Assembly: GCA_947476335.1 (NCBI GenBank) | Contig: CANJQH010000007.1 | Location: 1 to 64,000, forward strand | Length of the DNA: 64,000 nt | Origin: Anaerolineae bacterium | Lineage (GTDB): Bacteria > Chloroflexota > Anaerolineae > J036 > Brachytrichaceae | Reading direction: 5' to 3' | Shown here: one piece after another, positions 32 through 62,974 of the stretch | Numbering within the stretch: position 1 is the first letter of the stretch | How the letters are laid out: each line of letters opens with the position of its first letter | The notes under the pieces: generated by a model | The model's input: only the letters and a program-made list of their open reading frames with translations | What the model was told of the DNA's origin: nothing | Database searches by the model: none | Translations under genes and position numbers: made by a program

Positions 32-143
32 GTAACTACTCAGGCCCAAATCAGTATTTCCCGTGAAACACAGTATTCTCTCCCCCGAAGGGGGAGAGAA
101 TACTGTGTTTCACGTTGGAAAAATGGCTGGCCTGAGTAGTTAC
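32..143 (+). mobile_element. Element A, intact 112-bp copy
   Basis: The ends are the inverted repeats GTAACTACTCAGGCC and its complement. The core is a perfect 23-bp-arm hairpin with a CCCCC-GAA-GGGGG tip. It is flanked by the exact 8-bp direct repeat CAATTACG at 24-31 and 144-151, which is a target-site duplication. It has no coding capacity. It lies upstream of the phytoene synthase gene. Confidence 0.93.
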
Positions 144-1084: not shown

Positions 1085-2046
1085 GCGCTGCGGCAAAAAA
1101 GCTGCGGCCAGGCGTGCTGCTGTTTGGCGCATACCTCGCTGCAATGATGATCTACTGCCTTGTCCGACTGAGCGCCCGCAGCGAACTCATCATGCCGGCC
1201 ACCGCAGCAACGATCGCGTTGTGGCTGGCATGCGCCATTGTCGCAGCGCTAGAGCGCGTGCAGATGCGGCGCACTCTACTTATGCTGGCCAGCGGCTTCG
1301 GCGTCGCTCTGTGCTTCGAATACCTCGGCAGCAGCCACGGCCTCATCTTCGGCGACTACGACTACACCGACCTGCTCGGTCCGCGCATGCTCGGCGATGT
1401 GCCGGTGCTGATCCCAGCCGCGTGGTTCATGATGCTTTACCCATGCTGGGAGATCGCCGCCGTGCTGACACAGCAGATCACCGCCCACAGGCGCACTGCG
1501 CGCATCGTTATCGCTGCCGCGGCGATGACCGCATGGGATCTCAGCCTTGATCCGCGCATGGTCGCCGATGGCGCCTGGATCTGGCCGCATGGCGGCGCGT
1601 ACTTCGGCGTGCCACTCAGCAATTTCGTCGGCTGGTTCGTCACTGCGGCAACGATATTTATCGTGTGGACGCAGATCGACCGACGCGCATCGGCCCACTC
1701 AGGTGGACGGCTCAACCTGCCAATCGCGCTGTACGTCACAACATGGCTGGGCGAAGCAGGCGCCAATGCCATGTTCTGGAGCGGCGCACAGGTCGGCCTG
1801 ATCGTCTTCACCGGAATGGGGCTGTTCGCCGCACCAGCGCTGTGGCTATGCGGCGGCTACGACCTGCTGCGACGCACTGTCAGTGGCAGAGCCGATGCGG
1901 GTGCGCTGCTCGAACGCATCGGCCCATTTGCGCGCTTCAGCCCGCTGAAACCCCGTTCGATTGCCATCGACGTGCCGCAGAACCAGATACGAGCCGCCGC
2001 CGCGACGACCGTTGAACATAACAGCCAGATGCACGCTGGCGAATAG
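1081..2046 (+). CDS. Carotenoid biosynthesis membrane protein, CruF/DUF422 family
   Basis: This 321-residue polytopic membrane protein has about seven to eight hydrophobic segments. The stretch around residues 80-120 (EYLGSSHG, FGDYDY, LGDVPVLIPAAWFMM) is typical of the Caroten_synth family, whose studied members are CruF-type 1',2'-hydratases of carotenoid end groups. It starts inside the stop codon of the phytoene synthase gene. The last codons and the stop (GAATAG, 2041-2046) lie in the truncated element A copy that follows, so the native C terminus has probably been replaced by repeat sequence. The exact reaction cannot be told from sequence. Confidence 0.85.
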   Translation: MSAAAKKLRPGVLLFGAYLAAMMIYCLVRLSARSELIMPATAATIALWLACAIVAALERVQMRRTLLMLASGFGVALCFEYLGSSHGLIFGDYDYTDLLGPRMLGDVPVLIPAAWFMMLYPCWEIAAVLTQQITAHRRTARIVIAAAAMTAWDLSLDPRMVADGAWIWPHGGAYFGVPLSNFVGWFVTAATIFIVWTQIDRRASAHSGGRLNLPIALYVTTWLGEAGANAMFWSGAQVGLIVFTGMGLFAAPALWLCGGYDLLRRTVSGRADAGALLERIGPFARFSPLKPRSIAIDVPQNQIRAAAATTVEHNSQMHAGE

Positions 2047-2086
2047 TGTGTTTCGCGTTGGAAAAATGGCTGGCCCGAGTAGTTAC
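2041..2086 (+). repeat. Element A, right-half fragment
   Basis: This is the right half of element A, from the hairpin arm GAATAGTGTGTTTCG through GGAAAAATGGCTGG to the terminal repeat with one mismatch (CCCGAGTAGTTAC). The left half is missing. The fragment supplies the stop codon of the preceding carotenoid gene. Confidence 0.85.
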
Positions 2087-3845: not shown

Positions 3846-3932
3846 GTAACTGCTCAGGCCAGCCATTTTTCCAACGCGAAACACGCGATTCCTTCCCCAG
3901 AAGGGGAAGGGATCGCGTGTTTCGCGGGAAAC
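3846..3932 (-). repeat. Element A, copy truncated on one side
   Basis: It is read as GTAACTGCTCAGGCC, CAGCCATTTTTCCAACG, then the full hairpin in a variant form (CGAAACACGCGATTCCTTCCCC with nearly matching right arm), ending at GCGGGAAAC. The other terminal repeat is lost and no target duplication can be found. Confidence 0.85.
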
Positions 3933-3939
3933 CGTCCAT

Positions 3940-18109: not shown

Positions 18110-18127
18110 TGAGCGGTACTTATAAAG

Positions 18128-18322
18128 TCAGGCCTCGATTGATATTTCCCGTAACTACTCAGGCCAGCTATTTTTCCAACGCGAAACACACTATTCTCTC
18201 CCCCGAAGGGGGAGAGAATAGTGTGTTTCGCGGGAAATACTGATTTGGGCCTGAGTAGTTACTATTTCCCGCATTACACGCACCTGTTTCGCGTTGAAAA
18301 ACCGACTGACCTGAGTAGCTAC
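18128..18322. repeat. Old element A copy interrupted by a younger copy
   Basis: The outer sequence (GTCAGGCC... at 18127-18142 and GCATTACACGCACCTGTTTC... to GACCTGAGTAGCTAC at 18308-18322) is a diverged element A. The intact copy at 18151-18262 sits within it, and the host bases TATTTCCC are duplicated on either side. The old copy has lost its hairpin. Confidence 0.85.
18151..18262 (-). mobile_element. Element A, intact 112-bp copy (nested)
   Basis: It has complete terminal repeats and hairpin (CGAAACACACTATTCTC arms, CCCCC-GAA-GGGGG tip). The exact 8-bp flanks TATTTCCC lie at 18143-18150 and 18263-18270. It is inserted into an older element A copy. Confidence 0.95.
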
Positions 18323-21262: not shown

Positions 21263-21323
21263 GTAACTACTCAGGCCAGCTAGTTTTCCTACGCGAAACA
21301 CTGATTTGGGCCTGAGTAGGCAC
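21263..21323 (-). mobile_element. Element A derivative lacking the hairpin (61 bp)
   Basis: Both ends are present (GTAACTACTCAGGCC and CCTGAGTAGGCAC) with CCTACGCGAAACAC joined directly to TGATTTGGG, so the central hairpin is deleted. Flanks AAATCATC (21255-21262) and AAATAATC (21324-21331) match at 7 of 8 positions and probably represent the old target duplication. Confidence 0.85.
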
Positions 21324-23002: not shown

Positions 23003-23010
23003 AAAAATCG

Positions 23011-23122
23011 GTAACTGCTCAGGCCAGCCATTTTTCCAACGCCAAACACACTATTCTCTCCCCCTTCGGGGAAGAGAATAGTGTGTTTGGCGGGAAATAT
23101 TGATTTGGGCCTGAGTAGTTAC
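23011..23122 (-). mobile_element. Element A, intact 112-bp copy
   Basis: It has complete ends and a hairpin with a compensated change (CCAAACAC paired with GTGTTTGG instead of CGAAACAC/GTGTTTCG). Exact 8-bp flanks AAAAATCG lie at 23003-23010 and 23123-23130. Confidence 0.94.
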
Positions 23123-23144
23123 AAAAATCGATATAACACTTTTA

Positions 23145-26819: not shown

Positions 26820-26931
26820 GTAACTACTCAGGCCCAAATCAGTATTTCCCGCGAAACACACTATTCTCTCCCCCTTCGGAGGAGAGAATAGTGTGTTTCG
26901 CGTTGGAAAAATGGCTGGCCTGAGTAGTTAC
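26820..26931 (+). mobile_element. Element A, intact 112-bp copy
   Basis: It has complete ends and hairpin, with one mismatch at the tip (CCCCCTTCGGAGG). Flanks GACAAAAA (26812-26819) and GACAAAAG (26932-26939) match at 7 of 8 positions. The left flank begins inside the stop codon of the E1 beta gene. Confidence 0.93.
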
Positions 26932-28576: not shown

Positions 28577-28688
28577 GTAACTGCTCAGGCCAGCTATTTT
28601 TCCAACGCGAAACACACTATTGTCTCCCCCTTCGGGGGAGACAATAGTGTGTTTCGCGGGAAATACTGATTTGGGCCTGAGTAGTTAC
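28577..28688 (-). mobile_element. Element A, intact 112-bp copy
   Basis: It has complete ends and a hairpin carrying a compensated pair (CTATTGTCTC/GAGACAATAG). Exact flanks CTGTTGAA lie at 28569-28576 and 28689-28696. Confidence 0.95.
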
Positions 28689-31157: not shown

Positions 31158-31207
31158 AGCTCAATTTTTTGAAAGTTAAAAGTAGATGGTCACAGTAGAT
31201 ATTCCTA

Positions 31208-31297
31208 AGTGAGTCGCCAAAAGTTCTGGCGGCAGATTCGCCTCCCCCGCTTTGCGGGGGAGGCGAATCTGCCGGACAAAACTTATGGACAGGAACT
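31208..31297 (+). mobile_element. Element B, 90-bp copy
   Basis: Imperfect inverted ends are AGTGAGTCGCCAAAAGTT and, on the complement, AGTTCCTGTCCATAAGTT. A perfect 21-bp-arm hairpin (31230-31250/31254-31274, CGGCAGATTCGCCTCCCCCGC) lies inside. The dinucleotide TA flanks both sides, as expected for Tc1/mariner-IS630-type insertion. Confidence 0.85.
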
Positions 31298-31299
31298 TA

Positions 31300-34325: not shown

Positions 34326-34400
34326 ATGATTGCGGATTTTAGATTTCAGATTTCTGATTTGGCCCGCACCCACATCAGCCACGGCCGCGAGTGCGTCAAT

Positions 34401-34428
34401 CTGAAATCTGAAATCTGAAATCTGAAAT
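34401..34428. repeat. Four tandem 7-bp units
   Basis: CTGAAAT is repeated four times and is complementary to ATTTCAGATTTCTGATTT upstream (34343-34360), so a long imperfect stem can form after the enolase-family gene. An element A copy is inserted at its right edge. Confidence 0.75.
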
Positions 34429-34431
34429 AGG

Positions 34432-34543
34432 GTAACTACTCAGGCCAGCCAGTTTTCCAACGCGAAACACGCTATTCCTTCCCCCTTCGGAGGAAGGAAT
34501 AGCGTGTTTCGCAGGAAATACTGATTTGGGCCTGAGTAGTTAC
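34432..34543 (-). mobile_element. Element A, intact 112-bp copy
   Basis: It has complete ends and a hairpin with several compensated changes (CACGCTATTCCTTCC/GGAAGGAATAGCGTG). Exact flanks GAAATAGG lie at 34424-34431 and 34544-34551. Confidence 0.95.
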
Positions 34544-37610: not shown

Positions 37611-37655
37611 GGCCTGAATCGTTAACGTGACTCGGCAAGGTAGCAAGTCGCGCTG
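37611..37655. repeat. Remnants of element A end and element D ends
   Basis: GGCCTGAATCGTTAAC resembles the right terminus of element A. It runs into TTAACGTGACT and GGTAGCAAGTCGCG, which match the two ends of element D with the interior gone. Confidence 0.5.
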
Positions 37656-37745
37656 AGTTCCTGTCCATAAGTTTTGTCCGGCAGATTCGCCTCCCCCGCA
37701 AAGTGGGGGAGGCGAATCTGCCGCCAGAACTTTTGGCGACTCACT
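37656..37745 (-). mobile_element. Element B, 90-bp copy
   Basis: The copy is inverted relative to the one at 31208. Right flank is TA (37746-37747) and left flank is TG, so one side of the expected TA duplication has mutated. The 21-bp hairpin arms have one mismatch at the tip. It ends 18 bases before the creatininase-family gene. Confidence 0.85.
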
Positions 37746-37763
37746 TAGTTACGGAGAAATTCA

Positions 37764-42858: not shown

Positions 42859-42942
42859 GAACGCGTTGTGCGCTGAACGGCGGCGGTATGACGTCAGCGT
42901 CATGACGTACATGCAGACGAGGCAAGTGTCTAACAGGCTCTA

Positions 42943-43032
42943 AGTGAGTCGCCAAAAGTTCTGGCGGCAGATTCGCCTCCCCCGCAAAGCGGGGGAGGCA
43001 AATCTGCCGGACAAAACTTATGGACAGGAACT
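42943..43032 (+). mobile_element. Element B, 90-bp copy
   Basis: It is nearly identical to the copy at 31208, with TA on both sides (42941-42942 and 43033-43034). The hairpin arms differ at one position. It lies just upstream of the AT-rich acetyltransferase gene. Confidence 0.88.
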
Positions 43033-43086
43033 TAGCATTGGCGCTATCGCTGGTTGTGCAAGACCTCTTGCGTAAATAATTGCTTT

Positions 43087-52116: not shown

Positions 52117-52905
52117 GTGAAGTTATTCCTGCGCCGCCTGTTCGGATTCGACTATGCCGACCATATTTCTCTGCCGAAGCAGACCCGCACGGGTCTGACA
52201 TATTTTTATAGGGACGCAGTGTTTGCATTTTTTTCTGACGCGTCCTCGGCCAACTACATTAATCTTTTTCTCGTGTCGCTGAAAGCGAGCAACACTCAGA
52301 TCGGTTTCCTCACCACTTTCGTGCAAATTCTGACCGCGCTCGCGCCATTGCCAAGAGCAACGATCGCCGAACGCACCAGCCGTTATCGGGCCAATATCCT
52401 CGCGCCAGCATTCGTCGCACGCATAGGCTGGTTCGCACTTGCACTGCTCCCCTTCCTCTCACTCGGCCCGGCAGCTGTGACAGCCGCGATCACCATCTTC
52501 GGCGCCCGCATATTTCTGATGGCGTGGTTGAGCGCACCATGGACGGCATTCGTTGGCCGTCTGGTTCCTGCATATGTGAGCTACATGGCCACGCGCAACT
52601 TCGGCGGCGGCCTCGCCACGACGCCAACAATGGGCATCCCTATCGTCATCCTCGCCGGATCGCTGTGGTCGGGCCACGAATTGTCCAGCTTCAATACGCT
52701 GCTCACTGTCACACCCGAAAACGGCCGCGCAAATTTCATCGCACTGCATATGTTCGCCATCTCGCTCTTTGCCGCCGTCGGGCCGGCCATCGGCGACGCA
52801 CTCGTCGACACGATCGGCTTCTTCCCATTCTTCGCTGTCTCAGTGACGCTGCGGCTGGCAGTTGGCATTCTCCAGAATGTACTCACCAGACCCAACCCAT
52901 CATGA
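52117..52905 (+). CDS. MFS transporter paralogue with internal in-frame deletion
   Basis: The 262-residue product is a close paralogue of the next gene (LRRLFGFDYAD, ANYINLFLVSLKASNTQIGFL, RNFGGGLAT, MGIPIVILAGSLWSGHELSSFN) but lacks about 161 residues between RNFGGGLAT and TPTMGIPIV, which removes the middle membrane helices. Start and stop are intact, but transport is unlikely. The GTG at 52117 matches the paralogue's start; an ATG at 52048 would overlap the previous gene. Its stop overlaps the next ATG. Confidence 0.75.
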   Translation: MKLFLRRLFGFDYADHISLPKQTRTGLTYFYRDAVFAFFSDASSANYINLFLVSLKASNTQIGFLTTFVQILTALAPLPRATIAERTSRYRANILAPAFVARIGWFALALLPFLSLGPAAVTAAITIFGARIFLMAWLSAPWTAFVGRLVPAYVSYMATRNFGGGLATTPTMGIPIVILAGSLWSGHELSSFNTLLTVTPENGRANFIALHMFAISLFAAVGPAIGDALVDTIGFFPFFAVSVTLRLAVGILQNVLTRPNPS

Positions 52906-54182
52906 TTTCAACATTGCGCCGGCTCTTCGGCTTCGACTACGCCGACGGTCATAATCTTCCGCCACGCACACGACGCGGGCTGACTTTTTTTTACTGGGAC
53001 GCCGTCTTCGCACTGTTGTCTGACTCGTCGTCAGTCAATTACGTGAACCTGTTCCTCGTTTCGTTAAAAGCGACGAATGCACAAATCGGTTTTCTCGCAA
53101 CGATCGTACAGATCGTGAGTGCAATTGCTCCGCTTGGAGGCGGCGCAGTCGCTGAGCGCACCGGCCACTATCGGGCGAACATCCTCAAGCCATCGTTCAT
53201 CGCGCGCCTGTTCTGGTTCATGCTGGCGCTGCTGCCGTTCATGCCCCTCGGGCCGGCAGCAATAACGATTTCGATCACCATCTTCGCCGTGCGCGCGTTT
53301 TTCTTCGCATGGCTGCAAGCGCCATGGACAGCGTTCGTCGGCAAGCTCGTACCAACGGAAATTCGCGCCAGCTATCTTTCAATGCGCAATTTCGGCGGCG
53401 GCCTCGCCACCATCATCGGCACCATGCTCGCCGGCTGGATCGTCACTATCATTGGTCCACCAGGTGGCTATCAGGTCATCTTTGTCATCTCGGGCATCAT
53501 CGGCATGGCGGCACAGTGGGCGTTTTCGAACATCCCCTTCGAAGAGCCACAGCTCGCAGCGCAGCCAGCGCCGCGATTCAAGCTCCGACGCATCATCGAC
53601 AACACCATGGAAATGCTGCGGCGCTATCCAACGTTCGCACGCCTGCTCGTGTGCGACTGCGCACTCGCACTTGCCGTCGGCATCGGCGGCCCATTCATTC
53701 AGGTCTACCAGGTGCGCGTGCTCGGCTTCAGTGCGGGTATCGTCGGCCTGATGGTGTCAGGCGAAATCGCCATGAACATCATCATGCAACGCGTGTATGG
53801 CTCATACGTAATCCCACGCTTCGGCGAGCTGCGCGTGATGCGCTTCCTGCGACCGCTCACCAGCCTCGTCCCATTCGCATGGCTGTTCGCCACGACACCG
53901 GCCATGGGCATCCCGATCGTGATGCTCGCCGGAACACTCTGGTCCGGCCACGAACTTTCAAGCTTCAACACACAGCTGCACCTTACGCCGGAAGCAGGTC
54001 GTGCAAATTTCATCGCACTACACATGTTCGCCGTCTCGCTCTTCGCCGCCATCGGGCCGGCCATTGGCGGCGCACTCGTCGACACCATCGGCTTCTTCCC
54101 GCTCTTCGCTGTGTCGGCGGCACTGCGCGTCGGCGCAGGCATTCTGCTGAACGTGATGTTCAAACACAAGACGGCACACTGA
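52902..54182 (+). CDS. Major facilitator superfamily transporter
   Basis: The 426-residue protein has about 12 membrane segments. It begins MISTLRRLFGFDYAD with FFYWDAVFALLSDSSSVNYVNLFLV as the first helix and has a conserved loop SMRNFGGGLATIIGTMLAGW. No substrate motif is visible. The ATG at 52902 overlaps the stop of the truncated paralogue. The stop TGA shares two bases with the target duplication of the following element A copy. Confidence 0.83.
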   Translation: MISTLRRLFGFDYADGHNLPPRTRRGLTFFYWDAVFALLSDSSSVNYVNLFLVSLKATNAQIGFLATIVQIVSAIAPLGGGAVAERTGHYRANILKPSFIARLFWFMLALLPFMPLGPAAITISITIFAVRAFFFAWLQAPWTAFVGKLVPTEIRASYLSMRNFGGGLATIIGTMLAGWIVTIIGPPGGYQVIFVISGIIGMAAQWAFSNIPFEEPQLAAQPAPRFKLRRIIDNTMEMLRRYPTFARLLVCDCALALAVGIGGPFIQVYQVRVLGFSAGIVGLMVSGEIAMNIIMQRVYGSYVIPRFGELRVMRFLRPLTSLVPFAWLFATTPAMGIPIVMLAGTLWSGHELSSFNTQLHLTPEAGRANFIALHMFAVSLFAAIGPAIGGALVDTIGFFPLFAVSAALRVGAGILLNVMFKHKTAH

Positions 54183-54188
54183 AAAAAT

Positions 54189-54300
54189 GTAACTACTCAG
54201 GCCCAAATCAGTATTTCCCGCGAAACACACTATTCTCTCCCCCTTCGGGGGAGAGAATAGTGTGTTTCGCGTTGGAAAAATGGCTGGCCTGAGTAGTTAC
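54189..54300 (+). mobile_element. Element A, intact 112-bp copy
   Basis: It has complete ends and a perfect hairpin with the CCCCC-TTC-GGGGG tip. Exact flanks GAAAAAAT lie at 54181-54188 and 54301-54308. The left flank begins inside the MFS stop codon. Confidence 0.95.
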
Positions 54301-62674: not shown

Positions 62675-62974
62675 GTAACTAACGTGACTTGCTACCGTAG
62701 CTGGACTTTGGCCATTTTCGACGGACGCCACGGCTCGCGCCGGCGTCGCCCGCGGCGGACCCCGCCTCCGGCGCTCATGCTGGACGAAAAAGCGCCGGAG
62801 GCGCGCCGCTTACCCAGCCCGGACCAACGGTCCGGGCGTGGCATGGGCAAATTCGTCGGGGACGCGACGCCGTCGCGACCAGGCCGAAATTCTGCCTACG
62901 GTAGCAAGTCACGTTAACTACTCAGGCCCAGATCAGTGTTTCGCGTTGGAAAAATAGCTGTCCTGAGTAGTTAC
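62675..62974 (+). mobile_element. Element A derivative split by element D
   Basis: GTAACT at 62675-62680 and AACTACTCAGGCC from 62916 onwards are the two parts of an element A left end, separated by element D. The remainder lacks the hairpin (CAGATCAGT joined to GTTTCGCGTTGG) and ends CCTGAGTAGTTAC at 62974. No 8-bp duplication is visible. Confidence 0.8.
62681..62915. mobile_element. Element D, 235-bp element with 20-bp inverted ends
   Basis: AACGTGACTTGCTACCGTAG (62681-62700) is exactly complementary to 62896-62915. The flanks are AACT on both sides (62677-62680 and 62916-62919), a 4-bp target duplication within element A. The GC-rich interior has two small hairpins (CCTCCGGCGCT/AGCGCCGGAGG and CCCGGACC/CGGTCCGGG) and no credible gene. 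Confidence 0.85.

Follow-up and report, generated by a model that had tools for sequence, protein, structure and literature searches.

Bacterial MITEs such as MITEAba12, MITEPsy1, MITECca01, ERIC and Correia are short, gene-less elements with terminal inverted repeats (TIRs) that lie mostly between genes. They can be numerous, with up to 711 copies for ERIC (PMC10969869) and 169 for MITECca01 (PMC9769881). The 112-bp family that we describe here resembles them in its size, its lack of genes, its TIRs and its intergenic location, but the known families have other ends and other parents (IS982 in the case of MITECca01), and no IS66-derived MITE was found in the literature searched. REP/BIME sequences are also extragenic hairpins present at high copy number. 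However, they lack target duplications (TSDs) and are RAYT-moved, whereas the 112-bp family has TSDs of 8 bp. ISDge4, an active insertion sequence of the ISBst12 group, terminates in GTGACTACTCAGCA/GTAACTGCTCAGCA, with a direct repeat of 8 bp (PMC12898284). The 112-bp element is like this group in end motif and in the 8-bp repeat, but ISDge4 carries a transposase in a single ORF. The hairpin that occupies most of the element has parallels of a different kind, because polymerase template switching is known to homogenise the arms of palindromes and to invert their spacers (PMC8604942; PMC8794818). The published footprints, in yeast genes and rRNA, include both outcomes, among them a spacer inversion from ttc to gaa (PMC8604942, PMC8794818). 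They are single loci followed across lineages, whereas the family described here offers dozens of paralogous copies sampled in one genome.

Copies in the window and across the genome

The window, i.e., the whole 64,000-nt stretch of DNA that was analysed, belongs to contig C7 of a 3.42-Mb MAG (G000) that has 125 contigs and is 92.7% complete. The host probably belongs to Chloroflexota/Anaerolineae, judging by its gene content and by a single protein search with taxonomically mixed hits. The initial annotation had listed seven intact copies, six of them between exact 8-bp duplications and one between flanks matching at 7 of 8 positions. We re-read each copy in place (Table 1): all seven are exactly 112 bp long and the duplications are as listed, the imperfect pair being that of the copy at 26820. 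The ends are GTAACTACTCAGGCC; the copies at 23011 and 28577 have the variant GTAACTGCTCAGGCC on the left. The window contains 25 end-like sites with at most 3 mismatches, compared with 0.56 expected from shuffled sequences. The shorter and broken relatives, the nested insertion and the extent of the hairpin had been missed initially. A search of the window against Rfam gave no match.

Table 1. Members of the 112-bp family and of a second palindromic family in the window (strand, orientation relative to the consensus).
Feature	Position	Strand	TSD or flanks	Remarks
Intact 112-bp copy	32..143	+	CAATTACG (24-31 / 144-151)	Loop GAA
Partial copy	2041..2086	+		One half only
Partial copy	3846..3934	-		One end and hairpin retained, other end gone
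Older degenerate relative, ~87 bp	18116..18322	.		Split by the 18151 copy; right end with 2 mismatches
Intact 112-bp copy	18151..18262	-	TATTTCCC	Nested in an older family copy
61-bp form	21263..21323	-	AAATCATC/AAATAATC (7/8)	Without central hairpin
Intact 112-bp copy	23011..23122	-	AAAAATCG
Intact 112-bp copy	26820..26931	+	GACAAAAA/GACAAAAG (7/8)	Stop codon 6 bp before
Intact 112-bp copy	28577..28688	-	CTGTTGAA	Stop codon 11 bp before; two-sided stem change C47G
Second-family copy	31206-31299
Intact 112-bp copy	34432..34543	-	GAAATAGG	Inserted where a (CTGAAAT)n array ends
Second-family copy	37654-37747
Second-family copy	42941-43034
Intact 112-bp copy	54189..54300	+	GAAAAAAT	Identical to consensus; stop codon 6 bp before
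61-bp form	62914..62974	+	No TSD	Without central hairpin

Across the genome, ends with at most one mismatch occur 914 times (466 + 448), compared with 1 + 1 occurrences of a reversed control pattern, and form 177 strictly intact pairs. We studied the duplications in 811 kb of the genome, where 80 copies of 105-120 bp have readable flanks. The flanking 8-mers are identical in 50 of the 80 and match at 7 of 8 positions in another 9. Hence, 59 pairs match at 7/8 or better, far above the 1.6 expected when left and right flanks are permuted. The duplications have a length of 8 bp only. The exact ones reveal a palindromic target, SAAATTTS, i.e., (G/C)AAATTT(G/C), and have 37% GC in a genome of 60% GC. 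The copy at 18151 took the TATTTCCC that it duplicated from the older copy around it. Because differing TSDs surround near-identical copies, and because one copy is nested in another, the 112-bp copies are products of transposition, as the initial annotation had claimed from the seven copies of the window.

These duplications also bear on two other accounts of the family. The first takes the copies for structural repeats of the REP/RAYT type, or others spread by recombination instead of DDE transposition. The palindromic core and the high copy number are indeed those of REP elements, but precise 8-bp TSDs of differing sequence are not a feature of REP and refute this reading, to which we give practically no credence. 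The second takes the copies and their junctions for artefacts of short-read assembly. The MAG may be such an assembly, its contigs are many and several of them start near a copy, and about a quarter of the sampled 112-class copies are without TSD (21/80, with flanks matching at fewer than 7 of 8 positions); individually, copies without TSD could be recombinants or misjoins. Yet misjoins would not flank most copies with matching 8-mers, and the same ends recur, with TSDs, in different elements of unrelated genomes, which makes this account very improbable.

The 112-bp family is MITE-like and non-autonomous. Each copy consists of a 15-bp TIR, a 15-bp spacer, a 25-bp arm, a 3-nt loop, a 25-bp arm, a 14-bp spacer and a 15-bp TIR; it is non-coding and leaves no room for a transposase. 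The fixed TSD length, the number of intact pairs and their location mainly outside genes are also those of MITEs. MITEs often have an autonomous partner with the same ends, although they need not; no IS66 transposase was found in this incomplete MAG (see below). As a transposon, the family belongs to an already known kind. It also includes size variants: 61-bp copies lacking the hairpin (8/8 TSD in 2 of 6), forms of 80-96 bp, and forms of 153 and 204 bp. The latter were considered as larger autonomous elements and rejected: they are 61- and 112-bp copies that hold a nested element of a second, unrelated family. End pairs spaced by 320 bp to 6 kb and flanked by TSDs, which could have revealed an autonomous copy in the sample, gave only two spans, and both are clusters of short copies. 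Searches by DNA match found the 112-bp element in none of 395 other genomes of the class, none of which is of the host's genus, nor in viral contigs.

Genes were called by a simple dicodon-based finder, which gave a coding fraction of 0.83. By these calls, almost all copies are intergenic. Joining the flanks of TSD-bearing sites showed a disrupted gene in 3 of 59 cases, compared with 82% of random genic points. For 37 copies, the 3' end of a gene is no more than 30 bp away, whereas uniform placement would give 26 (p about 0.001). This excess may come from the choice of targets, from selection or from a role similar to that of a terminator. Separately, positions 52364-54169 of the window hold two tandem related genes, membrane-transporter-like and with stretches 70-78% identical, the first of which is apparently truncated.

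The candidate transposase

From the GTAA-starting ends and the 8-bp duplications, it had initially been suggested that an IS66-like transposase encoded elsewhere in the genome may mobilise the element. We found no IS66 transposase in the MAG, neither with the PF03050 HMM nor by tblastn with an end-matched homologue, although the MAG is incomplete and repeats assemble poorly. PF03050 is present in 85 of 298 genomes of the class, and we scanned these loci for the 15-bp ends. The scan identified single-ORF IS66 elements with related ends, having 11 to 15 of the 15 bases in common with the 112-bp element; they are of ~1.5 kb, except for a deleted one in G081 (see below). One of them is in the host's own family (G011), with ends at 14/15 and 13/15; it reaches the contig end, and its TSD is not demonstrable. 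The ends are at 13/15 in the element of G065, and at 11-12/15, with TSDs of 8/8, in those of G118, G223 and G250. The IS66 elements with 8-bp duplications include L094, L106 and L110. G081 contains an internally deleted single-ORF element of 971 bp (L115:4079-5049), with ends at 14/15 and 15/15 and no TSD, whose remaining ORF fuses N-terminal and C-terminal transposase segments; it is plausibly a MITE-forming intermediate. The three end-matched proteins that we tested match PF03050, DUF6444 and NF033517, while the deleted protein of G081 is under the NF033517 cut-off. Finally, short elements unrelated to the 112-bp one have exact GTAACTACTCAGGCC ends in four other genomes of the class (L065-L083, from G253, G155, G139 and G287), and several of them have 8-bp TSDs (among them L067, L076 and L083; genomes G253, G155 and G287). 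The same ends are found in differing short elements of other genomes and have therefore been used repeatedly.

Several transposase families make 8-bp duplications. The element could thus be moved by another one (e.g., ISL3, IS256, IS6 or IS1595), its IS66-like ends being coincidental, and the lack of an IS66 gene in this genome would fit. Against this, the end bases are held in common with independent single-ORF IS66 elements, and a published active element of the ISBst12 group agrees both in end motif and in the length of its duplication, such that we regard another family as improbable. The relatives' ends, their TSDs, the protein scores and the likeness to ISDge4 support the IS66 link from sequence comparisons, but narrow it to the single-gene ISBst12 group instead of classical IS66. 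The 112-bp element is not itself a member of IS66, only a proposed client, because it has no room for a TnpC-like transposase of its own. A full-length insertion sequence with the same type of ends and such a transposase, which the initial annotation had proposed to look for, was found in related genomes and not in this one. Because no IS66 transposase was found in a 93%-complete MAG, the actual driver is probably absent from it or unassembled.

We propose that an ISBst12-group transposase (single-ORF, IS66 family) would bind the 15-bp GTAACTACTCAGGCC ends and insert the element at AT-rich palindromic 8-bp SAAATTTS sites, duplicating them. The driver is pictured as an ISBst12-type insertion sequence, ~1.5 kb long and ending in GTAACTACTCAGGC. 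Its source may have been lost, may lie on an unbinned replicon, or may be in a repeat missing from the assembly.

A second palindromic family and heptanucleotide arrays

The second family is palindromic, MITE-like and unrelated to the first. Its copies are 94 nt long, including TA at both ends, and there are 142 strict copies in the genome. The context is nearly always C-TA...TA-G, which indicates a CTAG target with duplication of TA, and the insertion behaviour is Tc1/IS630-like. These elements are frequently inside copies of the 112-bp family, where they produce the 153- and 204-bp composites. The composite junctions are in one orientation in 13 of 19 cases and in the other in 6, and uninterrupted GCTAGC ends occur as well.

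The genome also has (CTGAAAT)n heptanucleotide arrays between genes, one in the window (34397-34429) and 40 others in the 811-kb sample. Among these 41 arrays, 21 have a 112-type element at a distance of 10 bp or less; conversely, 17 of 110 112-type copies are adjacent to an array, compared with 49 of 4000 random non-coding points. The heptad unit GAAATCTG fits the target consensus. Several 112-type copies lack a TSD and are flanked left and right by inverted heptad arrays, and we considered such flanks as possible extended ends.

Coupled changes in the hairpin

Folded as single-stranded DNA, the copy at 54189 has an energy of -48.8 kcal/mol (z = -15). The stem is perfect in 48 of the 67 copies of exactly 112 bp, compared with a mean of 22 and a maximum of 29 when arms are shuffled between copies. 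Hence, the two arms change together. In the mid-stem (positions 33-50), we counted 50 two-sided complementary cells and 11 one-sided ones, whereas the TIR pairs in these copies have 3 two-sided and 36 one-sided cells (Fisher p = 8e-14); these cells are not independent, since some two-sided changes are subfamily-wide (A41G/T48C/C49T), and the safer mid-stem comparison is that of 18 distinct two-sided with 10 distinct one-sided changes. Counted per site, the mid-stem has 4-fold fewer one-sided changes than the TIRs (p = 2e-5). The loop, read relative to the asymmetric spacers, is TTC in 33 copies and GAA in 27, and both orientations occur among the copies identical to the consensus outside the loop (6 TTC, 5 GAA). 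In any single copy, the orientation of the loop could be mis-set by short-read assembly. The loop of the second family flips too (AAA/TTT).

The coupled arms of the 112-bp family and the loop flips of both families fit polymerase template switching within palindromes. The hairpin would extrude during replication and the polymerase would switch template between the arms, so that each new mutation would be either transferred to the opposite arm or removed, and the loop would be inverted. Three copies of the second family are putative large template-switch footprints: in two the entire interior is inverted (C1:119762-119857 and C39:21755-21850), and in one the arms have been made identical (C13:52213-52309).

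Alternatively, selection for a functional hairpin (a terminator, an mRNA stabiliser or a transposition signal) could keep the arms coupled. Such a function would agree with the very stable fold and with the intergenic copies clustered at gene 3' ends, but it would not flip loops, whose orientation is free in this family and which flip in an unrelated family as well. It would also need each change in a young copy to result from two hits, whereas many two-sided changes occur in a single copy and the one-sided intermediates are depleted relative to the neutral-looking ends. Finally, the 61-bp forms can carry 8/8 TSDs without any hairpin. Selection is therefore an unlikely explanation, if less so than the other alternatives above. 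We hold the explanation as a whole, that of a MITE-like family moved by an ISBst12-group transposase and carrying a template-switching hairpin, to be highly probable. We are less assured, but still think it probable, that the family is a natural multi-copy recorder, in which nearly every mid-stem mutation has been copied to the other arm and loop flips are near equilibrium.

If this is true, a single genome sequence suffices to estimate the rates at which arms are homogenised and spacers inverted. The numerous near-identical palindromes of this genome also provide a replicated natural test of hairpin co-evolution, opposing selection to single-step copying error, with the TIRs of the same elements as internal control. 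Through the proposed transposase, the ISBst12 group, on which few studies exist, would be connected with a MITE-like family of very high copy number and with short elements of other content in other genomes of the class, and the ends, target preference and duplication length are now defined for a family with this putative link.
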